Shown: positions 6,192 through 64,000 of the stretch, one piece after another
Layout: every line of letters begins with the position of its first letter
Position numbering within the stretch: the first letter of the stretch is position 1
NCBI GenBank assembly: GCA_921293015.1
Contig: OV121086.1
Span: 40,069,402-40,133,401 of the forward strand
DNA: 64,000 nt
Origin: Phorcus lineatus
Lineage: Eukaryota > Mollusca > Gastropoda > Trochida > Trochidae
Direction of reading: 5' to 3'
Position numbers and translations under genes: made by a program
Notes under the pieces: generated by a model
The model's input: only the letters and a program-made list of their open reading frames with translations
Databases searched by the model: none
What the model was told of the DNA's origin: nothing

Positions 6192-6506
6192 GAGGTGAGG
6201 TGAATTGGGGTTTAATGCCGCTTTCAAGAGCATTTCACTTATACTGCGGCTGCTAGTTTTCGAGTATTGGAGAAAGCCCGCAACACCATTGTAATTATGC
6301 ATTGCGGTGAAACTTGCAAGCTTCGGCTGGAAATAGCAAACCATGGGTGGTACTGCACTGAAATTTAGTGTAGCATTGCACCCAAACCTTACTGCATGTA
6401 GAACAGTTCTCTACTGCAGACAAAGTTGCCGAGTGCCTGGCAGGATTCCAACCACAGACCTCTAGATCTGAAGCCGAAAACACTAACCACTGGGCTATCC
6501 CGCCCC
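6192..6506 (-). mobile_element. tRNA-derived SINE, family A, copy 1 (diverged)
   Basis: On the minus strand it starts GGGCGGGATAGCCCAGTGGT (A box), has a B box near GGTTGGAATCC, a body containing CTGCAGTAGAGAACTGTTCT, and a tail ending in CTCACCTC. Imperfect 13-bp flanking repeats (6179-6191 and 6507-6519, three transition differences) look like the target-site duplication. This is the oldest-looking of the four copies. Confidence 0.85.
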
Positions 6507-6519
6507 TGTGCTGCATGTG

Positions 6520-9500
6520 GGCATACTATTATAAAATTTCTTACCATATAAACTCACAATTTGTCTCCAAGGTCAGCACATTAAATCTATGAAAACAAGC
6601 GACAACAATTGATCCAAAACAACACAAATGACCTCAACTCCTACACAAGTTAAGAAAAGCCTCTGGATTTCTTCACCAATATTCTCTGTTACCAGAGGCT
6701 GTTATTTCAGGCAGCAAAGCCATAATTAAACCCTCACTACTACATTTGTTCATTTCGAGTCCCCATTTACACAGATAAAGAGAAGGGAAGGAGAGGGATC
6801 TTGAGTAACACCTTCAAGTCAAAAACAGGAAAATACATCAATCAACACCCACTTTTCAACTTTGACATTTCCAGTCATGTCCTTAAGACTTTGTTCCTCC
6901 GTTCTGTTCCAAAAATAAGCCAATGACATCTATATAGAGAGTTTTCAAGCTAAAGAAAGATCCAGCTACATTTCTGGCAACATAGGAAATGTCTTAGTCG
7001 TCATGGTGATCACACTGTCACAGGTCTATTCTAAAACATCAACCATCCATTGTTTACAAGTATGTCATAGATAACAAACTTGTTGATATGGATTCTCATA
7101 TAAAACGATCATGCTTGATGAAAATACAAGAATCTTTCTCATGCTTGATAAAAAACGGCATGCTCTCATAACGATGAAGTTATCCATAATAATCTTGTCA
7201 TATGGACTCTGATTTCCAAATAGCCTCTTAGTGGCAGAAGCACGTTTATTTTAGATAAGTTAAGCAATCTCACGAAAGAAAAATTAAGTTTCTAATTGCA
7301 GGACAAATTCTTTTTAATCAAAAGAAGCAGTTTTAAACCAAACATACCAAGGTCGGTTAATCTATGCGAATCTATTTCCCTAACACAAATGAGTAAAAGG
7401 TGTTTTTTTTTAAAATGGCCGCCAGTGTTTTTTGCTTGATAACTGATCATTTCCTCTAAGACTAAAGTTGATTGGGTTGAGTAATGAAATATTTTGACCT
7501 TCTGAATATAAAACTTTGGCTTAAACTAATGTATTTATATAAATCTTTATTAAAAAAAACGTCACAAAAGGAGAGACAATTCCTGGGAATGCTGAGGGGC
7601 AGAGCCTGTGAGAGAGCCTAACAAAGGATTTCATCTTGTCTGAAGTTCATTCTCTTTGCCAAGGGTTACTCTGTAGAAGGGTTGCTGTCAACTTATCAAG
7701 TCATTGAAATTAAAACTAATTAATTACAATTTAGCAACAATCCAGGCACTCCTATATAGTTGCTAGTAGTAACTATTTGTTATGAATTCTTAAAAATTTA
7801 GGCGTTTTATTGTCGCTGGTAGTTTGACTAAGGACTTTATCAGCAGTCTTTCTCTATAGATATTTCTTTGTAATTGCATTGATTGCTTTCTTTTATGGTT
7901 GACACACTTATCAACAAAGAAATAGATTCATAAAAAAGTTAAAAGGTTATTTCAATACATGCTTTCTTTTATTAAGATGCAGTTAATATATCATTTCATT
8001 GCAGTTTAAGTTCAAAAGAAATTATTCTTTTTATATTTCGAATTATTATCACATACCTTGACAGCAAAATATTTGCAAGGCACTTAGCACTTTCAAATAA
8101 GCTATTATAGCTTGTTCGCCAATCTTTGTTTCATTTTTGGAAATAAAAATATGTTTAAACCACTTAGCACTCCTCAAAGGTAGACTGACCCTTTTCTGTT
8201 TATCAACACAATTTTCTATCTTACCTTTCAGCAAGAAACTATCATAAGTAGAGTAATGACCCTTTAAAGGTTCTTGTATTCTTTTAAAGGCACTGTCTGT
8301 GAAATTTTTCCCACAAAAATTAGTTATTGCAAAATATGTAATTGTCAGTGAGAAAACCCCTCACTCAACCAAAATATCCCTAGATAATCATCACAAATAA
8401 AATGAAAACATCATGCAGCCATTTAAGTGTGAACACCTTTTAATCATTTAATCAGAGAATTGGATTCACACAATTCATCTCAACTTGTTAATTTAAGGAC
8501 TGCTTTAATTTATTGATTATAAAAGATTGTTTTGCAATTGGTTGCTTTCCTTTTCATAAGATGATTATTTCACAGAGAGCCTTTAAGATTTAATCATTTC
8601 ATTTTTATATATCATTGAGGAGCAGGTTCTCATGAAGTAAACTGAACACAAGGAAGGTACTGGTTGACGCACAGTTCCCAGGCTATGTTCATCAGGACTA
8701 TCTATCTGGGCAGCTGTTCAAAGACCTTGCAGCTAAAAACGGATCCAAGTTAATTAAATCAAGGGCACTGTTTCAACCTTGAGTTGCCAACAGGAACAAA
8801 TCTACTTTGAAGATGCTTTGAGTCGATGGATAAAGATTTTTTAATGTCTACGATTATTTGTCTATCTTTATAATACTTCCAATGGGGTTGAGGTGGGGTC
8901 GATTATCTGATTGTCTAGTGCACTTAAGTAACGTTTTTTATATGTAAAGGTTTTAGTAGTGCTGCTTTGATGCAAAAGTTTATAATATATAGGAAGGGAC
9001 AACAGGATTTTTGGTTTGACATATTTTTTCAAACAACATGGTGATCACTACGATAAATTTATCACATAATAGATAAATACACTCTTGCTCTAGAAGGAAA
9101 TAAATGATGGAACCCTAGTCTAAGCATCGTGTACTTTACGTATCATGTCAAATATATTCAAATATATTTAAATATTACAAGAAGAAAATGTCCCAAAAAA
9201 CATTGACCATAAAAGCAACATTTCCAAATATCACTAAAATGACTTAGATACATAAGTAAGAAAAAAATATAAAAAGTTTGTTGTTCAGAAACACTGCGAA
9301 CATTCAATTATTGACTCAAAGGGTTTCTTTTATGGTGCAACAAGTTATCATTGTCTGTTCAGAAATGACTGACAGGATGTCAACATCACTATTGATCCAC
9401 ATCAATTTCACTAAAACCTCTTTGTTAAACTCCATCTTGTTTGAGACAAGATTCTGTATAGTCTATTTCAACTTTCCAACTTTGTGTGAATTATAAAACG

Positions 9501-11279
9501 ATGAATTTATTTTTTGAAATGTTGATACACTGTACATGAATATGAAATATAGAATTGGATAGTTTAAATGTGATAGGGAATCTAATATAGGAGTTTGAAC
9601 ATTATCAGGAATGTCATTTTAATAAATTGGAAAAAAATTTTCGAGTGGCAATTTACAGGATTTCCAACTAACTTAAAAAGGCATTTATTCATTATGTGTT
9701 GCTTTTCTGCAATATTGTTGGAAAATGTTGGTAACTAGCCACAAACATTATTTTCAGCCTAGTTTTGTTGTTAAGGTTAATGAAAATTTAAGTTGATTTC
9801 TTCTACTAAAAGCATTTCACCCTTCCGTGATTGAGTGTCCAATAGAAAACTTATAGAGCAATATGACTCATCGACTCAAGAGTTATCCAAGAAAAACAGA
9901 TTTATAATCATTGCATTAAAACGAGCACTGGCTGAGTCATTGTTCAATAAAATCCAGCCTTGGACTCGATAATCACGTGCAACAAGGAACGTGAATGGCA
10001 CAAATATAAAACAAGGGAGATTATCAATGTTCTTCCAAGGATGATTTTTTGTCCCTAATGAGCATGATATTAACAATATGCATGATGTCAAAATCGTGAT
10101 CATTTCCATTAGATAACCAATGCAAATTAATTCAATTCTTGTAACAGTTCTAGTAAATATGTAATTATCTTATAAACCTTGCTTAGTTATAACAGCACAT
10201 TGGGTAATGTAAAAGGTGATTTATTAAATGGATCAGATTGAAAATAGGTAGAATGTTGACATTTCATACAAGAGTCGCAATGAAGAATTTAAAAAATAAA
10301 GTGTATTATAAATTATTATCAAAGATAAAAGCGTAAGATAATCGATGTCACGAAAAATATGTAACACTCATGATGCGGAAAGCAAAAATAATTTTTAAAG
10401 ACTGAATATAAGAAAAGTCATAAAATGAAGTTTTTGGAGAGTATACTTCAGGCAGTTATTGGAAATATAAGCACAAAACAAAGGAGATAAGGAATAATGA
10501 TGATATCTTTATAGTATAACCCCAAAACTATTAACCTAGTTAAAATCCTCTTTGTTTTGATTCCTTTGTTTTAATCTACCAATCAAAAAATCATTCGCAA
10601 TGAATTTGGCCCTGAAACTGAAATCTAACTTGTTGTAGATTTCTTAAGAACAAGATTTTTCATTTTAAAAAAATCAATTTTTTAATTAGAGAGGCATCGA
10701 GCAGCACTGATTAAAAAAAAATGATTTTACAAAATAAAAACTTAAGAAACATTGGCTTTCATGTAAGGTTTAAGAATCATACCCCAAAAGCTACAAAAAC
10801 GATCATTTATTCCCCCCGTTTTGAATTAAATCAATTACACAGTTCTTGGCAGCAAATTTTAAGTGACTGAAATACTGAAATATCCTTTATTTCATATCAA
10901 CGAATATTCTGTGATTGGGCCAGGGACCAATACAGGGAGTTTTTATTCTTCCGGTCTTTGATATTTATTCCTGTAGATTAGCCAGCAAGAAAAGTTTGAA
11001 AAAGTTCCTGCAGCATCTGTCATGCAACTATGCACAAAACCCTGCAGGTACCTAATCATTACTTCTTTGTACTCAGCCATTCTTATTTCATCTTACCATC
11101 CCTTCCCTAATGTATACAATGCTCAAGTCTGATACTGACTCTATCCAGATAAGCTCCACATAACACAAGGTATGATTTACATTGAAGCCTCCTTTCAAGC
11201 AAGCCATCATTACCAGGTGAACATCTGTCGGCTTTGTATCGGCCTGTGTTCACCATTCACACCTGATATTTTCGCGTGT
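6520..11279. other. AT-rich non-coding DNA, 4.7 kb
   Basis: I see no splice-bounded exon, no complete element and no tandem array. One YY1-like AAAATGGCCGCC occurs at 7414. Short frames, for example at 8049-8234 and 9876-10109, are unsupported. Confidence 0.5.
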
Positions 11280-17095: not shown

Positions 17096-17413
17096 GTGAG
17101 GTGAGGTGATTTAGGGTGTAACGCCCCTTTCAAGAGTATTTCACTTATATCGCGGCTGCTAGTGTTATTGTAGGGAGAAAGCCCGCAGCACCATTGTGGC
17201 TATGCATTGCAGTGAAACCTGCAAGCATCAGCTTTAACTAGCGAACCATAGGTGGAGTAGTGCACTGAAATTCAGTGTTGCATTGCACCTAAACCTGACT
17301 GCGTGTAGGACAGTTCTCTACTGCAGACAAAGTTGCTGAGCTCCTGGCGGGATTCAAACCACGACCCTTTTGATCCGAAGCCAAACGTGCTAACCACTGC
17401 GCTATCCCTCCCC
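17096..17413 (-). mobile_element. tRNA-derived SINE, family A, copy 2
   Basis: Same minus-strand structure as the other family A copies: a tRNA-like head with GATAGCGCAGTGGTTAGC, a GCTGCTAG-type body, and a tail ending in CTCACCTCAC. It is flanked by 13-bp direct repeats (17083-17095 and 17414-17426, TCTTCTRTTTGAG, one mismatch), which fix its borders. Confidence 0.9.
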
Positions 17414-17426
17414 TCTTCTATTTGAG

Positions 17427-19454
17427 TATTTTTATGCAAAGGTAAAGCATCTGGTATTTCAATGGTATCAAACTTTCTGTGATTTCATTAAGGAATTAGA
17501 TTAAAGCATTCACAAGTATATAGAGGAATATATATATAAACAACAAACATTGAGGAAATGACAATGAGAAAATGTTGTTTTTGAGTTTTCCTAAACTGTC
17601 TGTAAACTAGGAGTTTTTTGTGGAAACAAAATTGAGATGTTTCTGTTTGTCATGTCATTCATACATTATCATTTCACATTACTATTAATACATGTTACTG
17701 AGTAATAATTTTGTTGCAAAGATTTCGTGATTTGACAAAGAAAAGATAGCATTCACTCCAAAGAAACACATCGTGAGTCAGATAACATAACATGGTATTG
17801 CTGAGAATTCTCCTTATTTTTAATTTGTTAGAAAGTGTATATTCAATTAATACATATATTTTATCTTCTCTGTTAAAAATTAGCAAAAGTATGTTAGTTT
17901 TTTGTTTAAAGGAAAGTAAACAAACAATGACAGTGGACCAAACGCTAATATAACATTCAAACAGAGAAATAAACTATAGCAGTGACTCATACACACTGAC
18001 AACTGCCGTTAGTAAAAGTTTGAAAGATTGAATTGAAAAAAAATATTTCCAAGGGGCATGAAGTTCGTTTCCAATTTCCATACTGATTCATCCTCTTGTC
18101 ATTTTTCTGGCAGAAAAGAAAAAAAAGAATTGATAAATCTAAAATTCAAGATCCAGGACTATTCCAAATGTCATTTTGGACCCAAAAAATTAGATTCAAG
18201 GAACAAATTAAATATTTCTAAAAATGTAAAAATAAACAAATAAAATAAAATAAATAAATATAAGTTAAATAGAATACTTTATGATTAATTTCCTTAAAGT
18301 CATTTTCAAATAATATCTATAAGCTTTAAAAAGTGTATGTAAAGAAAAAAACATCTCCTTCATAAGAAAAAAAAGGTGAAAATAGGTGTCTGTTGTAGCT
18401 CATCACAAATATCTTAATTTCTTAATCTTTGGGCACTTCTTTTGTCTCTTCAATCTTTGGGCAGAAGATTTTTTGATTTTTAGAATATAATCTTTATAAT
18501 AAAAAAGTCCAAAAACCTTGATCAAAATAAAAAACCTTGAAATAATAAGCACGAAAGAAAAGGTCAACAAAATGCTAGAAGCTTTTTAACTGCTATAGTC
18601 TGAAATGTCAAAGGTCTCCAACAATACATTCTAAGTCAAACTTCATTCTTATCTACTGACGAGTAAAATTGATAACCTTACACTGCTTACATCCATCGTG
18701 CTTATCGATGTGTACATTAATCATGCAGACCAATTCACATAATGGATGTCAAAAAATTCAAAACATGTTCAAACTAGAAATTATTCATGTCAAAATATCC
18801 GGTTATCATGTTACTCAAAAAAAGAATATGAAATATTCATACACATCATGGTTTTGCCATGATTTTATCTGTGATTTAGTTTAACAAGTATTTACACATC
18901 AAATTGAAAGTAAAAGTTATAATCAAACAGAATAATCAAAGTATACAAATTTTGAAACCACTTTCATTTTTATAGGATCAACCCTACATTTTTATTATGA
19001 ATCATATTTTTCCATTCATGGAAACAAATTTATTCAGTATGTTTAAGGCTCTGAAGAATTGCATATGAAATTTTTTTTTTATGTTAACATCTTTTAAGTC
19101 ATTGAAGGGCATTTAGAAGTGGCATCCACAAGAACAGCAAAAGTTTCTGGACAACATTGTCTTTTTTATGAAAAACACAATGTTTTGGAGTATACCCCAT
19201 CATAACATTCTTATTTTGAACATCTCTGATTTGGAGAATTGTTTATTCTATTATCACGCTGTTTTCTCATCAACGTGTTGTCTAGATACTATGCTTGGCC
19301 ACAGACACAATCAAAGACTATTTGTGTTGACACAAGAAATGAATATCATCACCATATTAGTATCAGTACCCTATGAGGGTAATACTTAGTTCCTTGTACC
19401 ATGAACTACCTGTATCCCCTCAACTTTCATTGATTGGTCAAGCCTCAAACAAAA
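17427..19454. other. AT-rich non-coding DNA
   Basis: I see no exon, array or transposon. The 61- to 73-codon frames here are unsupported. Confidence 0.5.
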
Positions 19455-25669: not shown

Positions 25670-25986
25670 GGTGAGGTGAGGTGAGTTGGTGTTTAACGCC
25701 TCTTTCAAGGTTATTTCACTTATATTGCGGCTGCTAGTATTACTGCAGGGGGAAAGCCCGCAACACCATTGTGCTTATGCATTGCGGTGAAACCTGCGAG
25801 CATCGGCTGGAATTAGCGAACCATGGGTGGTATTGCGCTGAATTTCAGTGTAGCATTGCACCCTAACCTGACTGCGCGTAGAACAGTTCTCTACTGCAGA
25901 CAAAGTTGCCGAGCCCCCTGCGGGATTCGAACCACGGACATCCTGATCCGAAGCCGAACGCGCTAACCACTGTGCTATCCCGCCCC
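25670..25986 (-). mobile_element. tRNA-derived SINE, family A, copy 3 (young)
   Basis: A full-length 317-bp copy. On the minus strand the head is GGGGCGGGATAGCACAGTGG, with a near-canonical B box GGTTCGAATCC, and the tail ends CAACTCACCTCACCTCA. Perfect 11-bp target duplications TAGGTTGATGA lie at 25659-25669 and 25987-25997, so the insertion is recent compared with the others. Confidence 0.93.
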
Positions 25987-26274
25987 TAGGTTGATGAATA
26001 GCAGGATGTTTTGCTGTGTGCTTAGAGCATGCACTGAACTAGTGGAGTATTAGATGAAGTTATTATTAGTTTTAATATGAAATGAATTATTTTTTAATGA
26101 AGAAACAAATAAAATATTTTGAAGATGAGGGTGGGAGGATTGTGTGGTTCCATTGTAAAAAGTAATCATTCATGTACCATCTGCCTTTCAATGTTCATTG
26201 TTGCCACTGTTCAAATTTCAAAACAATTTTACCAGCTCTTGTTGTTTGAAGGGTGTTAGGGAGATTTCATAAAT

Positions 26275-35794: not shown

Positions 35795-36107
35795 GGTGAG
35801 TTAGGTGAGGTGAGTTGGTGTTTAACGCTGCTTTCAAGGTTTTTTCACTTATATCGCGGCTGCTAGTGTTATTGCAGAAAGAAAGCCCGCAACACCATTT
35901 TGGCTATGCATTGCGGTGAAACCTGCGAGCATCGGCTGGAACTAGCAAACCATGGGTGGTACTGCGCTGAATTTCAGTGTAGTATTGCACCCAAACCTGA
36001 ACAGTTCTCTACTGCAGACAAAGTTGCCGAGCCCCTGGCGGGATTCGAACCACAGACCTCCTGATCCGAAGCTGAACGTGCTAACCACTGCGCTATCCCG
36101 CCCCCGC
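35795..36107 (-). mobile_element. tRNA-derived SINE, family A, copy 4
   Basis: Minus-strand head GGGCGGGATAGCGCAGTGGT, B box GGTTCGAATCC, tail ending in CAACTCACC. Direct repeats AAGCAGACAARGA (35782-35794 and 36108-36120) differ at one base. Compared with copy 3 it lacks about 16 bp in the body (near 36001). Confidence 0.92.
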
Positions 36108-36129
36108 AAGCAGACAAAGAGAAACAGGT

Positions 36130-37550
36130 AAAGACAAAGACATCAGAATGGTAAAGACAGCAGACTACAGACCACAGACAGACGGTTAAACAGCTAGGCA
36201 GACAGATTCTACAAAAAGCATCTTATATTTCTTTACATATAGAACAAAGCTGGCAGTTAATCTCTTAAACGACCTTTATAATGACTCTTAAAGAAATTAC
36301 TATTGATTCTTTGTGAATGTCTATCTCTTGTTTCAAGTAAAAGGGCAGTTTGATTCAGAGACTTAATAAAATTGATCAACACATTGAACTAGTTTCCTTG
36401 AAACTAATTGTTATTGTTACTATTTTTCCTAATTACCTCTTAAAACTCATTTAACTTTTATGTCAAGTTCAGTTTGATTGTTTTTTTCACTTGTTTCACC
36501 TTATCCACTTCACAGTATACTTATAATATACTGGTTTGAGAAATGAGTTTTTTAATTAGTGCTTTGGAAATATCTTCAAAACATGATAAGGCCACCTACT
36601 TAGACAAGCATTAGATCCAAAAAGAAATTGAATATCTCAAAGAAGAAAGTGTTTTAATTTATCTTAGACTACCTAAACCATTTCTCTTCACTGAAAGTAG
36701 CTTTGAAACTCATAAAACAAAATGGAAACACAGAATGAACATGTATGTGCTGTGGAACTTTGAAATTTGCACTAAACTCCTTGTGCTCACTGATATATGA
36801 AGGGGGGGAGCGGAGGGGGGGATGAGATCTTCAAAAGCAAAAGTCAATATTAACCCTTTTCCTACTGAAACAGAAATTTTTTTATATAACGATAATAATA
36901 TTCCTTTTTTAATCTATTATTATAGCCTTTGACCAAAGACATAAAATGCTGTCATAAAATAATTATTGTATATAATTTAACATATAAACATAATTTTTCT
37001 GTCAACAAATAAATTACATTTTCACAATGTGGAGCTATAGTCGAACTGCATATGTTCTAAAAATAAATATCATCATCATAATGATGAGATGCAAAATTTT
37101 ATCATGTGTCTTTTAAACATGTGACTCAAAATCAAATCATAATTACAAACATCAACAATGGCCTTTAAAATATCATCTTCGTGAAAGAGCCTGAAAATTC
37201 ATGTAAAACTAGTCTAGAATAGATCTAAAATGAATATCAATCAAGTTGTCATCAAACTTCAAGAAAGTGGGGGTGCATTATCTTACAAACTTGCAAAGAT
37301 CAGATATACAAGCTTATGAAGTCTTATCAACACCCATAAGATGTCTCGCCTAAAATCACTTGCATAATGTGAAATATCTCTCAAATATCTGGCAAATCTC
37401 TTCTTTCATCTCCACATGTCAGTCTCCCCTGGCATGTCTCCTCATTACCCCCATAAATAAGCACACCACCCCTCCAAATCGCTATTTCATGCTTTGATGT
37501 GGCCTGGAAATTAAACACACGTATGCCGGCTTGATAGGCACCCTTGGGAT
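36130..37550. other. AT-rich non-coding DNA
   Basis: I see no exon, array or transposon in this stretch. Confidence 0.45.
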
Positions 37551-51600: not shown

Positions 51601-54600
51601 TATATTGTGCTGTTATAGAACTGTTCATGGACTGATGCTGGACATATATTGTTCTGTTATAGAACTGTTCATGAATTGATGCTGGACATATATTGTGCTG
51701 TTATAGAACTGTTCATGAATTGATGCTGGACATATATTGTGCTGCTATAGAAATGTTCATGGACTGATGTTGGACATATATTGTGCTGTTATAGAACTGT
51801 TCATGGACTGATGCTGGACATATATTGTTCTGTTATAGAACTGTTCATGAATTGATGCTGGACATATATTGTGCTGTTATAGAACTGTTCATGAATTGAT
51901 GCTGGACATATATTGTGCTGCTATAGAAATGTTCATGGACTGATGTTGGACATATATTGTGCTGCTATAGAAATGTTCATGGACTTATGCTGGACATATA
52001 TTGTGCTGCTATAGAAATGTTCATGGACTTATGTTGGACATATATTGTGCTGCTATAGAAATGTTCATGGACTTATGCTGGACATATATTGTGCTGCTAT
52101 AGAACTTTTCATGGACTGATACTGGACATATATTGTGCTGCTATAGAACTTTTTATGGACTGATGTTGGACATATATTGTGCTTTTATTAAACTGTTACT
52201 GGACTGAAACTTGACTGAGTATGGACCGGTACTGGAGTGAAATTGAACCTTTACTTGAATGAGATTGAACTGTTCATGGACTGATGTTTGACAGATTAGT
52301 ACTGTTATTGGACTGCTGTTAGACAGACATTGAACTGTTCATGGACTGATGTTGGGAATATATTGTACTGTTACTAGACTGTTACTGGACTGAGTTTAGG
52401 ACCGGAACTGAACTTAAATTGAACTGATAATGGACTGATGTTGGACAGATATTGAACTGTTCCATGGACTGATGTTGGACAAATATTGGACTGTTACTGG
52501 ACAAATACTTGACAGATATTGGACTGATATGGGACTGTAAGGTTACAGTAAATAAATTCTCTAAAGATACTCACAGGAGGTGTCACAAACTTGCTTGAGA
52601 GGAGAGGCTGCATAACATTCGTCACATAGTCGACAATCTTTCGCATCTCTGTCTCAATGTGGTCAGAATGAGGCTGAAAAAAAATGAAATTTATAATTGT
52701 TGTTTTATTAGAAAATTAAACTTAATTATAATAATAATAACTCTCTAATGTCCAAAAGAGTTTTTAACATATTCATTTTGTGCATTTAGCTCATAACTAC
52801 AATCATGGTACCCGATTTTGAAAATTGATAGAGCCAATGAACTTACTTTTCATAAATTTACTCAAGAAATATCATTTTTCAACAGCACCATAGCAAATAT
52901 TTCCACGCTCAAATGAGCTATCCAAGGGCATATGAGGACATACAGTTATACTTTAGCTTTTTATTGGTGCAACAAAATACCCTTTTTAACATAAGATCTA
53001 AAAATAAAAATGAAAATGTTCAGACAACACTGTCACTATTGGGATATAAAAATTGTGAGATGAGTTGTGCACAAAATAGGAAATAATTATTATGGTAAAC
53101 TAAGAGAAAAATAGGAAAATGTACAACTTTTGAATATATCTTAAGCTTTAAACTGAGAACCAAGGATTAGATATTCCTCATTAGGTGTATCAGTAATTTC
53201 ACATATTTGTTTTACACAGTATGAGCATTAGTGTTGAATTAACCATAATGGCTGCCTATTGGGTCGCCTATAGTATGTAAATTTTGAATTACCGATATCA
53301 TAACTCATGCAGATTAAATGCATTGAACATAACTTCTACCAGTTTTTTTTAAATTCAACTTTATAACCTGAATGCATACTTTTTTTCCAAATTACTTGCA
53401 TGGTAGAATCCCCCAAGGCAGATAGTTTGTAATATAAGGAGATATGCACTACTTATGCATCATTTATATTATGACATGTTGGTGTAGGTTAGTGCCTTTA
53501 AAACTCTATCGAAGAGACACTTGCTATGATCTGCCTATTATTTTTTTTAACTATATCTTGAATAAGGTTTTTTTGTGGCAAATTTGCTGCCACCTACTAG
53601 AGATATTCATTTTATTTTAAAAAATCACTCAATAAAAATATCTTTCTTTTAGATACTTTGGGTCTTGATGCAGTATCTCCTAATTATAGTGGTGTAACGA
53701 TTCATCGATAGTATTGATGTTTGCATCGTCTACTACGCGATACGAGTGCATCGATACAAAACATGTGTAGACAATATATCAGGATATTTATATCGTGAGG
53801 TTCCACAATACATCAATGTATTGCCATAAGAGACAATATATCCCGATACTGTTAACATAATTTGTTTCAAACAAATAACTATAAAAGCTAAAAAGGTTTT
53901 TCTTCTATTTAAGAGATAACAGTGATTAGAACAGAAACAGAAAGAGAAATTATATGATATTTCTGATATTTTCACAGTCGCTCTAATTTTGTGGCTTACC
54001 TTCATGTAATATCTATGACAATTTGGTACTTAAGGATTAACATTAGTGTTCTATGTCCTATCTATAGTTCATAAACTGTAGAGAATCGGGATACGTATTG
54101 TATCGCAATCACTGTATCGTGGTGATAATCGTCTCGCAGGTTCCTTGGCAATAATTCCGTGATATATCGTCTCGCCTAATAACACAAGAATCGGGATATA
54201 TCGTCTCACCACTAAGGCCAGGATACACAGGTCTACCTAATTACCTTCACGCCATCTATTCTCCTCTTACCAAGTTAATCTAGTGCAGAGAATGACTCAA
54301 TAGGTGCAACATATTACTTCAAGTATGATTCACGAAGTAACATGACACACAGGGCTGGAGTATATTACAAGGCAGACATCAAGTAATCAATAATTATGCT
54401 GGATAAGCCTACCTCTGATGAATCCAGTGGAAAGAGGAACTCAAGTGCTTGGGTAAAATAAGTCTTCACCAGACGATACACCTGTCGAGTCTGCAATACA
54501 TCAGATTATACATGAGGATGCGTGTCTTGTGAAGTTTACCAAAAAAGTCTGATTTTTACTCAAGGGAAAATTCACTAAATGAATTGATGTAAGATTATTA

Positions 54601-56636
54601 AAATGTTGTTCAACGAGTGCAGAAAGAATGATTGCTAAGCAGTAGTGATATTGGCAGTTGTTTACTATTGTAAATATGATAACATTTATGTTATACTAAT
54701 ATACTTATGTTACTAATGCTGATAACCTGTAGAATATCATGATGAATAATTAGTGATTTAATAAACTTTATTATACATAGGCTCCAAAAGTAATACAAAG
54801 TTGTGATGTAACAAGGTGCAACAAAAGTAATTTGAGGTAGAAAATTTTGCTTTAAGTTAAAGTCATAAATCAATTTTGTAAGGCAACTAAACTAGGCTAA
54901 TTATTCTTCACGAGCAAAAATCTGATCAATTACAATAATTCGCGTTTGCAAAGATTTTTATTTTATGCTCGTTTTAAAGTTTAGGATGATGTTGCTTATT
55001 GGCGTATGCCGTTTCAAACCGTTTAGCTACCGAATCAAGTGCAATCCCATCGCGAGTACGAAATACCGTAAATCTAGTAATTGCAATGTCAATACTTTTG
55101 ACAGACACATTCTTCATTGAGTTTACCAGCTGTTTGTTATTTCTGTATTTGAAAAAAAGGTAAGCTATTGGCTATTTTCATTGGATATTCAGCTGGGAAA
55201 TTTCATGTCATGGCCTGAGCGAAATGACGTGATAAGGATTAGCGCTCGCCAAAGACATAGGGTAGATTTGCACGCAGATTTCTGAAAATTGTTGCAAACG
55301 TTAGGGGAAATGAACTCTTTGTCTGGCGTACATTTCAATTTGCCTTGCAAAAATGAGACTATGACTTTAAGTAAAAGGCAATTTGATATCATATGTCTTT
55401 ATAGTTAAAGGACTGTTTTATGACATTTCTCTTAAAAAGTGCACTTGACATCTGTGTTTCTTCAACCCTGTGATCATATCGTGCTGAGCATTTTTTGCTC
55501 ATATTTGTATGACAGTTATTCAAATGTTGTAGATGTTATATCCTATTAAAAACCATATGGAAAGTTGAATGACACCTAACAAATCAGAAAATCAAACGAA
55601 AGATTTAAGGGAGATTAATGATGGCTTTTCAGTCCACTAACTGTATTTCTATCAATTCAAGAACAAACTAATCATCAACTACATGTTTTGATAGATTATC
55701 TACCCAAATGTAAAATTAATTAATGAATATGACGAGATTAATCAGTAATACATTGACACAATCTAGCAAGGTTTTTATGGGTCCAGGGATTGGGAAAGAC
55801 ACCTTTGACAATGGGCCATTTCTAGTGCTTTAAGTCATGTTCTTAATTTCGAATGGGCCATTCCCCTTTGCAGCAATACTAAAATCTCAAATTTTAATAG
55901 GACATTTTTTCATCTGAAGTGTAAAATGGCCCATGGTCCCTACCTTTCCCAATCCCTGTGGGTCAATACTAAATACCTTGACTTTATTAGAGTATGAGTC
56001 TGTTGATTGGCATTTCTATTCAGTTTTATAGTGAGGACTCTTATAATTTGATATTTTACTGAGAAGAGTATGAGAAATTTGCCTTTGACACTTGAGACAT
56101 GTTTTATATAGCTGAACGTAGACATATTTCATTATTGGTCCTAAATTCAAGTGGATTGCCAATGAATATGCTACATTAAACTACCGCATGACAAATGAGG
56201 AATATGATGTTAATGGGACGTGATTTGAATCAGAACCAATGTGTTCTCTTCCTTTCAAACAGATGTAAAAATTTCTATGGTGACGAGAACCGTACCCATT
56301 CCTCGGGAACAATTAGAAGGAAATGAGGGTGATAAACATAACATCACAGTACCTAACTGCAGATACAAAGAGAAGCATCATATCATGTATCACACATGTT
56401 GCCATAGACACAGATTTCGTTTTTTTTTTCTAAATGCCTGTCAGATTCATTCAAACTGGAAGAATGAAGTGTTCATAGTAGACGAAACTAGTTGTATTAC
56501 GATTTGATCTCAGGTCATACGGATAGAACAGTTATTTTAACAATATTTGCGTTACCTTTGGGTCAGCAACCGCTAAACAGCAATTCCCTTCCCCTCTGTA
56601 TTTCCATTCGGCATTTTCATGCATGGAGCGCGCCAT
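48536..56636 (-). CDS. IPPK: IPPK, inositol-pentakisphosphate 2-kinase, exons 1-6 (3' part not found)
   Basis: Known of the family: Ipk1/IPPK adds the 2-phosphate to Ins(1,3,4,5,6)P5 using ATP, making phytate (InsP6), in nucleus and cytoplasm. Seen: six minus-strand exons with GT/AG borders and matching phases encode about 188 residues. They follow the known protein in order: ENAEWKYRGEGN near residues 6-17 (glycine loop), a KIVDYVTNVM segment, a VVAEIPEGF segment, LVLPDFCFM, then IEIK joined across intron 5 to PKKAFIP, giving the signature EIKPK. Last comes KHQVCKFCLHQKLK. These align by eye with human IPPK residues 1-168 without large gaps. Introns 1-5 are about 2065, 1739, 2496, 538 and 699 bp. 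The human protein is about 490 residues, so roughly 300 are missing; the later exons should lie below 48536 but were not recognised. No stop or frameshift is seen, so the gene looks functional. Confidence 0.9.
48711..48838 (-). mobile_element. MITE, ATGGGCCATT family, copy in IPPK flank/intron 5
   Basis: Contains CTATGGGCCATTTTGCACA and ATGGCCCATTGTCAAAGGTG. It is the reverse complement of the element at 55784-55958, with degenerate ends. It lies in IPPK intron 5. Confidence 0.65.
49328..49473 (-). CDS. IPPK: IPPK exon 5
   Basis: 146 nt. Its first two bases complete the codon left by exon 4, and it ends in phase 0. Acceptor GCCTCTCTCAG|CAA has a good pyrimidine tract; donor is ATCAAG|GTGAGC. 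It encodes ASRLKKAVDLVDGRSRS, then ALVLPDFCFM and finally PTISIEIK. LVLPDF matches human MCLPNL, and ISIEIK matches CVEIK of the family signature. Confidence 0.92.
50012..50078 (-). CDS. IPPK: IPPK exon 4
   Basis: 67 nt, starting in phase 0 and ending after the first base of a codon. Acceptor ATTTCAG|GTT, donor CCTG|GTATGT. It encodes VVAEIPEGFAEEAEKHDQEL plus RP, matching the human VVQLPLEFVKQL region. The intron before it is the minisatellite-filled intron 3. Confidence 0.85.
50136..52545. repeat. 22-bp minisatellite filling IPPK intron 3
   Basis: 50136-51000: regular ACTGATAATGCATTGGTACT plus GG units, arranged in a higher-order repeat of 198 bp (9 units; compare 50441 with 50639). 51120-51590: strongly diverged units. 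51590-52190: a 44-bp dimeric form (TTCATGGACTGATGCTGGAC then ATATATTGTGCTGTTATAGA). 52190-52545: diverged again. The array ends about 30 bp from the exon 3 donor and starts about 57 bp from the exon 4 acceptor. Confidence 0.93.
51005..51118. mobile_element. MITE relic inside the minisatellite
   Basis: GGTCATTGGACAAAGCAATT, ACACTAAGGTTCAGC, GCACTAAAGATACCTTAGTG and TTAGTGTTTTGTTACTCTGG place it in the AAGGTTAACCTTAG family. It separates the regular and diverged parts of the array. Confidence 0.5.
52575..52673 (-). CDS. IPPK: IPPK exon 3
   Basis: 99 nt, 33 codons, phase 0 to 0. Acceptor TTTTCAG|CCT, donor CCT|GTGAGT. It encodes PHSDHIETEMRKIVDYVTNV and then MQPLLSSKFVTPP. The KIVDYVTNVM part corresponds to human QNIVDFGKNVM, which lies in the N-lobe helix. 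Confidence 0.85.
53687..54235. mobile_element. hAT-type MITE in IPPK intron 2
   Basis: Left end TAGTGGTGTAACGATTCATC; inverted near the right end is TAGTGGTGAGACGATATATC. The interior has many ATCGATAC and TATCGTGAGGTTCC words typical of hAT-derived non-autonomous elements. An 8-bp direct repeat CCTAATTA lies at 53679-53686 and 54236-54243. The right copy sits 21 bp outside the obvious inverted repeat, so the right end carries an extra 21 bp. Confidence 0.7.
54413..54490 (-). CDS. IPPK: IPPK exon 2
   Basis: 78 nt, phase 0 to 0. Acceptor ATTGCAG|ACT, donor GAG|GTAGGC. It encodes 26 residues (TRQVYRLVKTYF, then an acidic DSSE end). It sits where human IPPK has the second beta strand (QRCVVLRFLKF). 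Of the six exons its protein match is the weakest; position, phase and length support it. Confidence 0.75.
54849..55382. mobile_element. Candidate MITE in IPPK intron 1, about 40-bp inverted ends
   Basis: TTGCTTTAAGTTAAAGTCAT ending TTTTGTAAGGCAA at the left matches, inverted, TTGCCTTTTACTTAAAGTCA ending TTTTTGCAAGGCAA at the right. The interior is GC-richer than its flanks (CGCGTTTGCAAAG, TAGCGCTCGCC). No target duplication is clear. Confidence 0.55.
55784..55958 (+). mobile_element. MITE, 175 bp, in IPPK intron 1
   Basis: Perfect 15-bp terminal inverted repeats CAGGGATTGGGAAAG, with ATGGGCCATT repeated inverted further in. It is flanked by a 6-bp direct repeat TGGGTC (55778-55783 and 55959-55964). 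A related inverted copy is at 48711-48838. Confidence 0.85.
56556..56636 (-). CDS. IPPK: IPPK exon 1 (coding part)
   Basis: Encodes 27 residues beginning MARSMHENAEWKY and ending AVADPK, then donor AAG|GTAACG, phase 0. The start chosen is the ATG at 56636-56634, inside CAAGATGGCGCGC, a strong Kozak-like and YY1-like start context. It puts the GEGN loop at about the same distance from the N terminus as in human IPPK. The same frame stays open to an ATG at 56774, and another ATG lies at 56624, so a longer or 4-residue-shorter N terminus cannot be excluded. A possible acceptor (CTTTCAG) just upstream near 56660 would allow a spliced 5' UTR. Confidence 0.85.
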
Positions 56637-56641
56637 CTTGG
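56628..56641 (-). promoter_or_regulatory. YY1-like motif over the IPPK start codon
   Basis: On the minus strand the start codon lies in CCAAGATGGCGCGC, close to the AANATGGCGGC form of YY1-type sites often found at animal start codons. A TATAAAAG string lies at 56647-56654, only 18 bp before the ATG. If it were a working TATA box, transcription would begin near the second in-frame ATG (56624). I think it more likely to be fortuitous. Confidence 0.4.
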
Positions 56642-56829
56642 ATGCGCTTTTATATCTCTGAAAGCTGAAGAGTTCCACTTTCAGAGCGCTGTCAAAAACT
56701 AGCATGTGGTCATTTTTTACGGGTTTTGTGCCAGACACGGTAGCAAATGTAATTATCTGAAGTGTACGTTTCATTACAACTGCATAGTTAACAACACAGA
56801 TGAGTGATAGAGCTTGGATTAGCTAGATT

Positions 56830-58110
56830 ATCTTCCTACAAAGAAAGAAATATAAAAAACATGGATTTGGGTTAATTACAAACTCTAATTGACTTCAAAC
56901 GGTTTCCCTGAAATATCTAAGCATATATGTATTCAGATTTATACTTACACGTGCTTATGAGGTGAAATATTTGTTACCCGGGCCTACTCAGGCCAGCAAT
57001 AGGACCTAAGTGTTAGTATTAATTAAGGCACATACTGCAGCATTTAATCATGTCTGTATATATTAACCTAGGTTTAGACCTATTCATTTAAAAATTGTGT
57101 CTATATAACTATTAAAGGAAATTAAATTTTGATTAAAAAAAAAGTTATTTTACTTTTCCTTTTGTAAAACTATATACTAATTATTATTCAGTTCGAAATC
57201 CAGAAATTAAAAGTCTGGGTTTTTTACTAGCATGGTTTACATTTCAATCATTCAAGTTAGTTACAGTTAGGCGTTTTTGTTTAATTGCGTCTTTTTATTA
57301 TGCCGATAATAAGATAAAACTCGAAATATATTCGAAAAATATGAGATATCATTTATCAGAATCTCCTAGGGCAGTTTAATCTGCTATCGGAGAGTTAATT
57401 AGCCATGAAAATATAGATATATATTATATAGGTATTTAATGTCTTATTATGGTTCACTTATGAATGTCACGTGTCATAGTTTAGTGAATCATTATCTCCC
57501 TCGATTACTTCTTCAAGCAAATGAAAACCAAATATGCAAATGAGATCCAAATATTTCCAAATTTCAAATACAATAGTTAACTCTGTGAATAGGGGGTCTA
57601 AAGGATGATAGATAGATGCAGTTTCTTTTGTCCAGATAATGGCAGATATCATTTCTTGCATGTAAGATTCCTAAAATCTAATGAAGCCATGAAAGTGGAA
57701 TTACTTAACTATGGTTTAATGAAAAGGTTAGACATTTTGTGAGTCAGTTAAAGAACATCCAGTATCCCCGAAATAAAACCAAAAATATGCTCCCCTCTTT
57801 TTACATATCTGAAATATTACTAGCCTATATTTCAGAATTATAGTTTTTAAGACCTTGATTTTAATCCTTCACATTTCATTTCAATAATCATCCACAATTT
57901 CCCATGTACGTTGAGCTATGACAGGAAGGTCGTGTTGTTTAGTGATAAATGAATGGAGATCGAGGTTTACTTTGACATTGTTTTTCCTTATTACTCAAAT
58001 AATTATATTTTCCAAATTACCTGGCGATCTTTTGATAATGTGGGCGTGTAATAGATATTTTTGTTTGAAATAATTTTATGGATTGAACGTGCAAGTAATT
58101 GTCTGTCGTC
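56830..58110. other. Upstream flank of IPPK, AT-rich
   Basis: I see no exon, array or transposon. ATGCAAAT at 57535 is an octamer-type word. Confidence 0.45.
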
Positions 58111-58116
58111 CGCTGA

Positions 58117-58134
58117 TGACGTCACAAGGAAGTG
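58117..58134 (+). promoter_or_regulatory. CRE plus ETS-like site
   Basis: TGACGTCACAAGGAAGTG joins a full CRE to GGAAGTG, an ETS-type core, about 1.5 kb upstream of the IPPK start. It might belong to a distal promoter for a spliced 5' UTR, but no transcript evidence is visible. Confidence 0.35.
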
Positions 58135-58455
58135 CCCTACGTAATGTGACAACTGTTGACATAAAGTATTCGAGCTGAGCAAGAATTTCCACGGTGTGTG
58201 AATGATATCTTTCCGAAACAAGCTCGATCATGTCTTTACCGGGACATCAAAGTCGTTCGAAGTTAAAGCTTCCTGATTTACCATTCTCTCACGAATAGGT
58301 GATAACGTAACGGTTATCAGTAGGAAAGGAAGAGTTACGGCGGTCAATAATGTAATGTGAAAAGTATGATGAATATTACATTCACGATGTACATAATATA
58401 TAATAATAACCTTCACTGAATAAATACCCTAATCTCCTCATATTAGGTGTCAGTG

Positions 58456-58643
58456 TTAGAAGTATAGGTTAAAAAACGTGCGAAGTTTCTCAACATTACA
58501 TAAGTTTACCCCTGCCAAATGCTTGTACATCACAATTATTGGTGCCCCATTAATTGTATTATTCGTGTTTGTGTGACTTGAAATATGGACCGGTGGCCTT
58601 ACTTTCTTCTGAATAAAACTTCATTAAATTAGAAGTATAGGTT
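58456..58643. other. 158-bp segment between 15-bp direct repeats
   Basis: TTAGAAGTATAGGTT occurs at 58456-58470 and exactly again at 58629-58643. The 158 bp between ends AATAAAACTTCATTAAA. This may be a retroposed insertion with its target duplication, or a simple duplication. Confidence 0.4.
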
Positions 58644-58856
58644 CACCAGTGTAATGGCAAAGGATTTTAAAAATCTTTCTGAAATATAAACGACTTTGAA
58701 AGTCAATGCATTAAAAATGGTAAAACCAAAAGTTACTTTGCTGTTCTTATCCCATTTTCAGCCTATTTTCAAATATGGTTCATTTAGATAGAATAGAGCG
58801 AATTTGGTTCATGTAAGGAGTGACAGAGTCGTTTATGGATTATGCATGATTGAAAT

Positions 58857-60360
58857 CAGGCCCCCCTGAGTAATTGAAGGAAATGCATCAAATTTGAAAG
58901 AAAACAGTGCATAGGGCCTAATAGAAGGGAAAGCTTCCCAAATGGTAGGAAACGCAGCTTAATCGCGAAACAAACACGTCAATATCGGTGAAACGCGGTA
59001 ATATCAGAGATTTTCCGTCCATATCGGAAGCAACCCGTCCCACTTTCGAAGGAACAACGGTAGACTTCGGAAGGAACACGGTAATTTCGGTGAATTCTCG
59101 GTCGACAGCGGAAGCAAACGCATCTCAAAATGGCTACGAATCTGCAGCCTCCAGTTTCGATTAGTGTTGTTTATATGTTTTACTGTGTGATTTTTAGATG
59201 TATTTTGTTCTACATGGTTGCATTGAAAGCGCAATTGAACAAGGAAACGATGGAGTTGTAGAGTTTTGCAATGAAATTGAGTAGTTACGGCGTTACTCGC
59301 ATAGAGTCCGGGTTTGTTTACATCAGTCAGATGAAGCCGTATCGCTAACGCTATCATTGATCAGCGTCTGTGATTGCGTTTACCTGAGGTTATATATTTT
59401 TTGAAATGTAAATATACAAGATACTCGCCAATAATTTTCTATTTTGTAGTAAAGTATTTATGAAACGCAGGTCTCAAGAATCTAAATTCCCGAAATCGAT
59501 CAATACGACAAAGGGAAGTAACTCTTTTTTAGTTGAATTAGGCGAACTGCCGCTAACTCGTGAAATACTCAACAAGTGGTTGCAAAGCGATTTCGAGATA
59601 ATTCCAAACACGGTCCCTAATATATGGGATATTTAAATGGTCAAACGAAACAAGGTCAAAGAAGTGCGGCATATGGAGCGACACGTTAACAAAACATGAA
59701 ATGTTACTTTTCGATAGGTATATAGCTTCATTGTACAAAAACGAAAGTTAGATTTACACGTGATACATATGTACTCACAAAATTCATATACATATTTCCA
59801 AAACTTATAAAAAATATAACACGGAAAGTCTGATGCAGGTACACGCAATCACAGACGCGGATCGATGATAGCGTTAGCGATACGGCTTCATCTGACTGAT
59901 GTAAACAAACCCGGACTCTATGCGAGTAACGCCGTAACTACTCAATTTCATTACAAAACTCTACAACTCCATCGTTTCCTTGTTCAATGTTGCGCTTTCA
60001 ATGCAACCATATAGAACAAAATACATCTAAAAATCACACAGTAAAACATATAAACAACACTAATCGAAACTGGAGGCTGCAGATTCGTAGCCATTTTGAG
60101 ATGCGTTTGCTTCCGCTGTCGACCGAGAATTCACCGAAATTACCGTGTTCCTTCCGAAGTCTACCATTGTTCCTTCGAAAGTGGGACGGGTTGCTTCCGA
60201 TATGGACGGAAAATCTCTGATATTACCGCGTTTCACCGATATTGACGTGTTTGTTTCGCGATTAAGCTGCGTTTCCTACCATTTGGGAAGCTTTCCCTTC
60301 TATTATGCACTGTTTTCCTTCAAATTTGATGCATTTCCTTCAATTACTCAGGGGGGCCTG
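58857..60360. mobile_element. 1.5-kb foldback DNA element, near-perfect inverted arms
   Basis: Left arm 58857-59386 and right arm 59836-60360 are inverse copies differing by roughly seven substitutions and two small indels (about 98 percent alike, by eye). They enclose a 449-bp unrelated centre. The ends are CAGGCCCCCCTGAGTAATTG inwards. GAAAT directly abuts both ends (58852-58856 and 60361-60365), a 5-bp target duplication. The arms hold subterminal repeats of a motif near TTCGGAAGGAACACGGTA. A mirrored frame (up to 117 codons) appears in both arms but is not a transposase. The element is non-autonomous and recent. Confidence 0.85.
58935..59125 (+). repeat. Degenerate GCGGAAG subterminal repeats in left arm
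   Basis: Spaced about 18-25 bp: ATCGGTGAAACGCGGTAATA, ATATCGGAAGCAACCCGTC, TTTCGAAGGAACAACGGTAG, TTCGGAAGGAACACGGTAAT, TTCGGTGAATTCTCGGTCG and AGCGGAAGCAAACGC. The mirror set lies in the right arm at about 60095-60280. Such repeats often bind transposase. Confidence 0.55.
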
Positions 60361-60365
60361 GAAAT

Positions 60366-62512
60366 TGCTTTCTGTGAAATACAGATACTGGACTAACAAA
60401 AATATCAATACCAATATACATGATATTTATCATACTAGTGTAATACATAATTTATACCATCACTTGATATGGAAAATAAATAAACTTAGTACTGAAAGGC
60501 ATGGAACGCTGTTTTAGTAACAAGTTCGTAAGAATTTATTAAAAATTTAAACAGATTTTGTTTTTAACTTCCAGGAAAAAAGTTAAACCTGCATCTCTAT
60601 AAAGGAGTCTTTTAAACAGTCTAGCATTCTCCTCAATCGGGACCATGTGTGTATTGGTACACCTTGATGAATTTGCCAATCAAAGATGATAAAGAGTTAC
60701 ATATTTTAACAAGGAATTATTTTATATAGACTAAATTAAGTCCTGTGAATAGTGAATACGTTAAGCTGGTCAAACTATACAGACTTCATCAAAATTACAA
60801 TTCATTAAAACTTTTGGAGAAACATGGTTAAAGGGTTAAATTTATGGTTTTAAAAAAGTGTATAAAAATACGATTTCATCAACATTTTGACCCAAAAAAA
60901 TGAATATCAAAGGATGACCAACCTTGAGCATAAACAAGATAATTTTTAAAGTGACTTTGGACTTTGTAAGACAAATTTTAACGTTAAAATGAACCACGTT
61001 TTTGTCGTCCATATAAGGACATCCTATAAAAATATTTCATACACCTGTACGTAATGTTTTCGATTTAGATATATATAGCGAATGGCTTGCAGCGGTGTCA
61101 ACTTTTTGATGTGAGTGCAATGTGAAATGGAGATAGCGATGTGACATGCCCCGGGGACTTTACCTCAAGCTTACATATATATATATCCTTTATGCTTCTA
61201 ATTCTAATGAAATACTGCGCACTATGAGCTATTTTAAATTTATATACTTACTGACCTTTACACATTAAGTATACACAATAATGAAATTTTTTAATTCAGA
61301 ACCAAGTATTTCTCTGACCGGAAAATGTAAACAAAATGTTTGCGTTTACTTTTATTTCATCCAAGAATCACCCCCCCTCCCCCCCCCCCCCCCCCCCCCA
61401 CCACACCTTTTACATCGTTGCAACAACTGTTTCAACGTTACACGTTTTGTATATCATATCGACTTGAAAGTTAATAAAGTTTTGACTTTTATAACCATTT
61501 CAAAGTCCTTGACGTTATGCTTGCCGACGTAAAACTTGTAAAAATTTCGAATTCTGACACTTATAGAGTGTAGTGATACTTTGAGGTTACACTAGTGTTA
61601 AAGTGACACAGAGAATGTTTCATGATTTTTTATTTGGCTGTAGTTATAGCTAAAATACCTTATGACCTCAGTTAAGTCAAAATCTCTTCTGTAAACTTTA
61701 TCTTTATCTCTAAAATGCCAAAAGCATGATATCTTCTTGTTTTCATTGATAATCGGAAAACGGTTCTATTAATGTTAAGAATTCGAAATTATGTGTCCAG
61801 TTAACGCGTATATTAATCAAATGCCCTAATTAACACTATCAACCAATGTTTGTCTTTGTGTCTACTGTAAATAAGTTTTCGAAATTACGTTTAACTTTTT
61901 GGGAACAGCCAGACAGACAAACGTTTATTTAAGTCTCACCCCAATATAATATATAATACAAAAAGTGTAAGAAATGTAGAATATAAAAAGGGCCATCCAC
62001 AAGTGGGATTATGAGAGACTATATTTAAAAAATATACACGGATGCCAAGTACATACACACCATTGATGTTTAAAAAGATAAAGGTAAAGTATATAAAATA
62101 AAAGGTTATGAGTATAATGCACTTTTCCTTTTATATAAAATATTTTGGCAGCAATGGCGTGTCATTGTCTGGTTTTCGATAACAGATTACGACAATGACT
62201 CGTTTATTGTCACTATACTGAAAAGGTAAGCATAAGGAATATGAGTTTATGAAACAACCATTACTTCTCAATAAAACAACAACATTTATAAAGTTTTACA
62301 TATTTGACTCCAACAACATACTCTGTGCCCATTTGGCAATATTTTCACGGCTTACCCTTGGCAAAAGACGAAATATGGACGATTCAAAGACGTATTAACG
62401 GATAAGAATAGTTCAAAGACTATACATGTATAAGTAACATTGAGTATTTTGTTGGAGTCACTATTTAAGTCCAACGTTATCAGTGCAGGCTTTTTAATCG
62501 AAAAGTACTTAC
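60366..62512. other. AT-rich non-coding DNA with C run
   Basis: 61371-61399 is C with a single T. A TATATATATAT run lies near 61174. No exon is supported; the 83-codon frame over the C run is an artefact. Confidence 0.5.
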
Positions 62513-62651
62513 TTTTCCTGAGGATAACAACTTTGATGGCTATCCGTGCAGTACAGTTACAACATGCGAGGAGGTGAATAGTGATCGAAAACCGGACAGT
62601 GTACCTCGGCTTGCCTGCGACAATTTCCCAAACCTGATCTGGCAAATTTAT
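62513..62651 (-). CDS. Orphan exon candidate, possibly a 5' UTR exon
   Basis: On the minus strand acceptor TTCTGCTATAG|AT and a strong donor GGAAAA|GTAAGT bound 139 nt with one open frame (phase 0 to 1). It reads INLPDQVWEIVAGKPRYTVR and later CCNCTARIAIKVVILRK. It is GC-richer than its flanks. I recognise no domain. Lying 6 kb upstream of IPPK on the same strand, it could be an exon of an upstream gene or a non-coding first exon of IPPK. Confidence 0.3.
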
Positions 62652-64000
62652 CTATAGCAGAATAAAAGACAAATATGTATTATATCCCTTTGAACGTTTT
62701 TAAAGTAAACATGTTCGTTAGGTAGGGAATTTCGACATCATTTCTAGATTTCAGAATAGAAAATCGTGATAAATTTCGCTTATTTGAATGAAAATGAAAG
62801 TCTAGTGAGATCATTTGAACTTAAATCAGCCTATATTGTAATTTGGTATGTATCATAGCAAGATATATTTGAGAATATAGAATTATTAAACTAAGTAAGA
62901 TTTAATGAAAATACAATATGTCTCTTAAATGAAGTAATCGCCAGATTGGCATTAGTGGACATAGAGATCAAGGCAACGTTATAAGTGCGATATTTGGTTT
63001 CCATTAACAATATATCACCACACTAACACATATTGTATAAATCTACATAACACACCTTCAAAGTTACATCACAACACCCAACACTCGTTATATCAGGAGT
63101 GTGGTATAGGTTTTATCTTCTAGTAAACACTTTATTTCATTGCCATGTTTACAAGCTCTTTGTAACATGACGTCATAAGCTGTAAGAGTTCGCAAACTAA
63201 AACTCAATGGGTTTAATTAGAAACTGGAGGAAATAATTGAATAACTTGTTGTGTAAATGAAAACAGGCATATCGTCATTAGTTAATTTGCCCTCAACATT
63301 TAATGATGTTGTGTATGCTTGTAATAGGAAAACAAGACGTTCTTGTAGTTTGGTTAACATTTCCAAGGACGGGGAAACAACAGACTGTTAAGCTCCAAGT
63401 TTTTCTTTCACTCTTGTGAAAACCGAATAAGTTTAATCGTATTTTCAGTTATGGAGAAAATTCTATATTCAGTTATGGTGAAAATCGTTTTTTTCAGTTA
63501 TGGAATAAAAAAAATTTAAAAAGAGGGATAATTTGCTTAGAAAAGACAAGCTAGATTGAATTAATTTTATTGGCTTTAGACCAGCCTTACCAAGGACCCC
63601 ACTCATCAGGCAGAATACACTATCAATGATTTTTGCTTACATTTATAAACAATCGTATTGTGTTATAATCTCACGACTGAAATAATGTAGGCCTAGTTTA
63701 AACATGCCCTTAACTACATCCCTGCCTCGTACGAACGAAACATCCAATAGTTTTATGATCCACATTGATTTTCTTCTAGAAATCCAGAATTGTCAAGCAG
63801 GTTAAATTCTATTTTGTCATTTCTGTTCTAATATACAAGAAAACTGTCACCCATGGTTATCCTGATATATCGATATCTCTATTTTCTGAATAATCTCTGT
63901 CTGTTATAATCTCGTGCTCAGAAGGGTAAAATATCATTGGTTACTTTTATTTGGTACTTGTATTGAAATAGGAAGGAATAAGTTCACAATAACGTCTACA
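62652..64000. other. AT-rich non-coding DNA
   Basis: I see no exon or element. A CRE palindrome TGACGTCA lies at 63168-63175. Around 63447-63500 CAGTTATGG recurs three times at about 25-bp spacing. Confidence 0.5.

Follow-up and report, generated by a model that had tools for sequence, protein, structure and literature searches.

The window analysed here, a 64-kb stretch of DNA (C11:40069402-40133401) from a genome of 957.8 Mb in 74 contigs, contains a near-palindromic element of 1504 bp at positions 58857-60360. The element begins with CAGGCCCCCC and ends with GGGGGGCCTG, and an exact GAAAT abuts both ends as a target-site duplication (TSD); exact 5-bp matches at the same spacing occur at 95 of 62,485 window positions (0.0015). 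The inverted arms, 530 and 525 bp long, differ by seven substitutions and two indels of 7 and 2 bp. This foldback-like shape and its flanking duplication had been described in an initial annotation, the coordinates of which proved exact for both the ends and the TSD. The features of the element, including its assignment to the terminal inverted repeats (TIRs) of a longer element described below, are listed in Table 1.

Table 1. Features of the near-palindromic element and its boundaries, in window coordinates
Feature	Position	Strand	Basis
Left TSD, GAAAT	58852..58856	+	Exact copy at 60361-60365
Left arm, truncated right TIR of the long element (nt 10536-11058)	58857..59386	-	Alignment to C5 element
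Right arm and 'middle', complete left TIR of the long element (nt 1-963)	59385..60360	-	
Deletion junction, 2-bp microhomology (CA)	59385..59386	.	Alignment to C5 element
Right arm as paired with the left arm	59836..60360	+	
Terminal 270 bp, degenerate 20-22-bp repeat array (core TTNCTTC), mirrored in the left arm	60091..60360	+	
Right TSD, GAAAT	60361..60365	+	Exact copy at 58852-58856

The element occurs once in the window and many times in the genome. Autocorrelation of its terminal 270 bp gives best lags of 41, 20, 21 and 22, and 4 of 500 Markov shuffles attained as high a maximum. The core TTNCTTC, a motif picked after viewing the sequence, is present there six times against 0.25 expected (0 of 2000 shuffles). 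These 20-22-bp repeats may represent putative binding sites for a transposase or a C2H2 protein, by analogy with Galileo of the P superfamily, where the TIR repeats hold sites bound by the THAP domain of the transposase (PMC3688188). Folding of the outer 89 bp as DNA yields only a weak hairpin (z -1.81; 10 of 200 shuffles equally good). Pfam scans of ten ORFs within the element returned one chance-level match (E 0.13), and Rfam shows no RNA gene at the insertion site. There were no matches of three exact TIR/arm patterns among viral contigs, nor of the whole element among phages and plasmids in distant mode.

The observed/expected CpG ratio of the element, 1.39, is higher than that of all 595 sampled stretches of equal size that do not overlap the element (maximum 1.01). 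As an age signal this is weak, because the 2-kb flanks are also CpG-high (0.83 and 0.79) relative to most of the window. Over the window as a whole, 2-kb bins have ratios of 0.08-0.65 up to 54 kb, 0.66-0.67 between 54 and 58 kb and 0.81 between 62 and 64 kb, and the rise over positions 54001-64000 perhaps marks a switch between methylated and unmethylated compartments. Elsewhere in the window, related short repeats are located at 6298-6525, 17275-17484, 25778-26038 and 35945-36222, with recurring translated strings (GGIAQWLARSASD or variant, GRDSAVVSTF); a borderline Rfam tRNA match lies at 17345-17411 (29.1 bits, cut-off 29). These four repeats are probably a SINE family.

A genome search with one arm produced at least 43 matches at 93-100% identity, 40 of 568 first-look candidates having been scored, so that the sequence is far from single-copy. 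Twenty-seven loci were fetched; together with the copy in the window, they yielded 23 complete short copies. These were drawn from the best arm matches and thus favour well-kept copies. Loci L002-L008 duplicate L009-L014 and were left out of the counts, and L035 is the right end of a long copy on contig C29. Four loci (L014, L023, L032 and L033) are single-armed, with no partner arm in the 20-30 kb further inward, and were excluded from the TSD counts.

Copies with CAGGCCCCCC ends are numerous, which the initial annotation had required of a family, and their TSDs are mostly 5 bp long: 18 of the 23 short copies have an exact 5-bp duplication, L026 has one of 6 bp and L019 one of 4 bp, and no exact TSD was found for L010, L017 and L018. 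Together with that of the C29 long copy, the 19 five-base TSDs consist of A or T at 69 of 95 bases, and no position is fixed. Comparison of 300 bp of flanking DNA on the 23 copies revealed no relationship except for two shared repeats (49 and 67 bp) and for L010's own inverted flank; therefore, the copies are separate insertions rather than segmental duplications. The L010 copy (C19:29769634-29771726, the same locus as L003) belongs to the class of the window element and is centred in a perfect 271-bp inverted flank, which reflects either a palindrome-seeded rearrangement or a fault in the assembly.

Two long copies carry the same ends as the window element and provide the longer, gene-bearing relative that the initial annotation had called for. 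The copy on contig C5 (59170185-59181242, minus strand) is 11,058 bp long with a 6-bp TSD, GGCATC, whereas the copy on C29 (38376608-38394873) extends over 18,266 bp and has a 5-bp TSD, ATCCA. The TIRs of the C5 element measure 943 and 949 bp and are about 98.8% alike. The C29 copy corresponds to the C5 element with about 8.1 kb inserted into it (L045:8275-10000 with L035:1-6429). This insert has inverted repeats of its own, some 390 bp long and 71% alike, and is possibly another large transposon.

Taken in reverse orientation, the window element consists of two stretches of the C5 element, nt 1-963 followed by nt 10536-11058, which overlap by CA; about 9.6 kb of interior is missing. It thus comprises the whole left TIR and about half of the right TIR of the long element. 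The TIR proper accounts for about 943 bp of the nt 1-963 segment, and the assignment of that segment to the left side rests on its last 20 bp, which match the left side past the TIR. Since the arms and nearly all of the 'middle' are TIR sequence of the 11-kb element, the palindrome is no independent foldback element. The palindromic arms of the earlier description stand, and the element itself is an internal-deletion derivative of a transposon with TIRs of about 0.95 kb, not a member of a stand-alone foldback family.

The same breakpoints, 963/10536, are common to 11 of the 23 short copies, and the exact junction string is present in ten. Three further copies have breakpoints at 979-980/10506 with 3-4 bp of overlap, and two at 946/10475 with 10 bp of filler. 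The remaining seven are each broken at points not shared with any other copy. Among them, one pair shows overlaps of 2 and 5 bp and another pair contains filler of 1 and 4 bp, while L019, L020 and L031 resist resolution into two simple parts. Altogether, the 23 copies display seven distinct simple junctions and three more complex ones. Copies of the window class are present at many unrelated sites and differ from one another by 0.4-3.8% (55 pairs, median 1.9%), demonstrating that the derivative has multiplied as a unit after the deletion; the window copy has six private substitutions over about 1.5 kb. A real DNA-transposon family with a recent spread, as proposed before, is supported. The near-identity of the arms gives no insertion date, because the TIRs of the C5 element are themselves about 98.8% alike and the arms within each of the 11 sister copies diverge by 0.2-1.9%.

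The shared junctions also bear on whether the palindrome could be an artefact of assembly or replication rather than a transposon. Such an artefact is conceivable at the L010 site, with its perfect inverted flank and missing exact TSD; for the family it can practically be dismissed, as eleven copies have both breakpoints in common and the flanks of the 23 copies are otherwise unrelated save for the two short repeats.

The large gene of the C5 copy contains one open frame of 1276 codons and was modelled as five exons with in-phase GT-AG introns, encoding 1468 aa from a likely ATG to one terminal stop; a short extra upstream exon is possible. Outside the TIRs, the only stop-to-stop ORFs above 100 aa in this copy are two pieces of this gene and one C2H2 ORF, located on the minus strand near the right end and encoding C2H2 fingers. 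The C29 gene has a broken frame and lacks exon 2, and no exact match to the last acceptor was found in it. Over the large exon, pN/pS between the C5 and C29 copies is 0.35 (20 synonymous and 26 non-synonymous differences; Fisher p 0.0007).

Among Pfam families, only YqaJ (PF09588, E 7e-11) matches the large gene above its cut-off. The NCBIfam lambda-exonuclease family TIGR03033 scores E 1.9e-9, which is below its own cut-off, and the RNase H domain of P-type transposases (PF21787) stays sub-threshold, with scores of 20.2 and 16.9 bits where 24.6 would be needed. No curated transposase model in Pfam reaches its cut-off in the encoded protein. Of two sequence searches against solved structures, one gave nothing at E up to 1 and the other only a chance-level Rab match. 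The protein had no match among viral contigs; in a collection of genome contigs there were three pattern matches, none of them confirmed.

Transposases of the DDE/DxxH class have D, D and E residues and a C/DxxH motif in an RNase H fold, to which correspond here the candidates D316, D859 and E1330 and a DPHH at 1165, all placed by eye. In the relevant stretch, [CD]xxH is observed once against 1.2 expected from composition, a chance level at which the motif alone proves nothing. The YqaJ nuclease motifs lie around residues 565-640, so that the nuclease would be inserted between the first and second D if the by-eye placement is right. The DDE transposase core of the 1468-aa protein is a putative one.

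Relatives of the protein are encoded elsewhere in the genome. For the exon with the proposed E, similarity amounts to 85% in four of them and to 75% and 66% in two more, whereas the 552-aa segment bearing YqaJ shows 49-50% identity in the four and 49% and 38% in the other two. Four YqaJ-protein relatives (C19:20497484, C7:26495867, C19:2291518 and C37:3539396) have near-equal scores at 49-50% identity and open frames of 979-1265 aa, which suggests a second recently active family; the relative on C37 has no match to the E exon. At L020:2890-3474 lies a sequence that resembles the TIR at about 69% and has, as seen by eye, a tandem array of about 50 bp near its end; this diverged relative is a possible sister family.

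We put at roughly three in four the probability of a scheme in which the window element, having lost the interior of an 11-kb cut-and-paste DNA transposon, is non-autonomous and is moved in trans by a DDE protein of the DxxH group. According to this scheme, the 1468-aa protein would be a DDE-type transposase of that group. It would recognise the array of 20-22-bp repeats at either end, cleave at CA..TG and insert the ends into the target with a 5-bp stagger, thereby also mobilising the derivative. The fused YqaJ/lambda-exonuclease-like domain would process the ends. The short derivatives may have arisen by aborted gap repair after excision, the ends often being rejoined at 2-5 bp of microhomology. 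Against a uniform deletion route, some breakpoint classes have 1-10 bp of filler and no microhomology, and gap repair is presumably one among several possible routes. The TSDs of the two long copies, 5 and 6 bp, and the three short copies without an exact TSD also count against the scheme.

Classification was approached with Pfam and with published descriptions. Long, internally repetitive TIRs resembling foldback arms link the family to Galileo and to the foldback-like Tetris, which is non-coding and has 8-10-bp TSDs (PMC4079207). The present family differs from both in its mostly 5-bp TSDs, its YqaJ domain and the lack of any P-type domain above cut-off; the same difference in TSD length, 8-10 bp against mostly 5 bp, separates it from Mutator-type foldback elements. 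The TSDs of the P superfamily are 7-8 bp long, as compared with 5 bp, rarely 4 or 6, in the family described here.

The strongest competing explanation, a serious possibility that we nevertheless regard as somewhat improbable, is a deviant member of the P, Kolobok/KolobokE or Dada groups, all of the DxxH type, with a changed TSD length and a gained nuclease. The sub-threshold PF21787 match points in this direction, but the 11 loci of the genome with PF21787 matches above cut-off include none of the loci of the YqaJ-protein relatives, and the DxxH match is no better than chance. KolobokE offers a precedent for the nuclease, as it combines a DDD/E transposase with a PD-(D/E)xK lambda-exonuclease-like domain (PMC9587614), the counterpart of the YqaJ domain in our protein. 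In KolobokE, however, the nuclease is downstream, and Kolobok elements have TTAA TSDs and RR..YY ends (PMC9587614), all of which are absent here: the TSDs are varied 5-bp sequences, the termini are CA..TG, and the nuclease precedes the proposed second D. Dada elements with a DnaQ exonuclease embedded in the DDE/DxxH transposase core are described from two host species and resemble the present family in combining an exonuclease, a long multi-exon gene and internally deleted derivatives (PMC3706591). They differ in the kind of nuclease and its insertion point; moreover, Dada generates 6-7-bp TSDs in small RNA genes, and Dada-U6 and Dada-U1 have no TIRs (PMC3706591), whereas TSDs of mostly 5 bp are found here and the window insertion site has no RNA gene.

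Less probable, and in our judgement unlikely, is that the YqaJ protein is an accessory gene only and that the family is moved by a separate transposase we have not read. The precedent is ISL2EU (PHIS), in most families of which the YqaJ exonuclease is a separate, second ORF beside the transposase (PMC4482050). Consistent with such an arrangement, no transposase domain in the YqaJ protein reaches its cut-off, and the C29 copy carries further ORFs in its insert. The C5 copy lacks that insert, however, and has outside its TIRs no stop-to-stop ORF above 100 aa other than the gene pieces and the C2H2 frame; the exon with the proposed E is also better kept among the relatives than the YqaJ segment. 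ISL2EU further differs in its AT dinucleotide TSDs (PMC4482050), as opposed to 5-bp TSDs and a YqaJ domain within a 1468-aa gene.

An origin within CMCT (CACTA/Mirage/Chapaev/Transib) is very unlikely, in spite of CA..TG ends and 5-bp TSDs that fall within the CMCT range of CA..TG ends and 2-5-bp TSDs. CMCT transposases have CxxC and H(3-4)H between the second D and E (PMC12730594). HxxxH-like strings do occur between the proposed second D and E of our protein, but CxxC is found only at residues 119 and 1360, outside this stretch as placed by eye, and there is no Pfam match of the CMCT kind. The hAT subgroup suggested as one possibility by the initial annotation is not supported and is likewise very unlikely. 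CAG-type ends are common in hAT elements. The 5-bp TSDs, which define hAT5 (PMC12730594), are a genuine likeness; however, when the large ORF of the long copies, fragments of it and the downstream exons after splicing were compared with Pfam, no hAT family was detected at E up to 1 or 5.

Returning to the DxxH-type cut-and-paste transposon preferred here, its TSD length, ends and protein together match no superfamily among those compared, and no family with this combination of features was found in the open-licence literature, as represented by the available portions of text. The element thus acts like a cut-and-paste transposon, perhaps of the DxxH kind, and is filed here in no named superfamily; the family may be an undescribed lineage. 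Only tentatively, and as a rather doubtful proposition, can it be raised to an undescribed DDE superfamily, which would be characterised by 5-bp TSDs, CA..TG ends, near-kilobase TIRs with helically phased arrays, an RNase H core split by YqaJ between the first and second catalytic aspartates, a C2H2 partner and several diverged sister families in the same genome.

The analysis traces an orphan near-palindrome to a large transposon that carries genes, and it illustrates one route to 'foldback' elements: once the interior of a long-TIR transposon is deleted, hardly anything apart from terminal repeat is left. With seven simple and three complex junctions, the 23 copies form a natural deletion series. 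If the core is truly split by an exonuclease, it can be asked whether an enzyme for end processing is encoded by some cut-and-paste transposons themselves, and whether this affects TSD length and the rate of deletion. A clam genome paper lists YqaJ-domain genes among the highly expanded domains, under the label 'viral recombinase', and YqaJ is reported as a large family that is contracted in one scallop. Some of these YqaJ genes may be transposon proteins of the kind encoded by the family described here.
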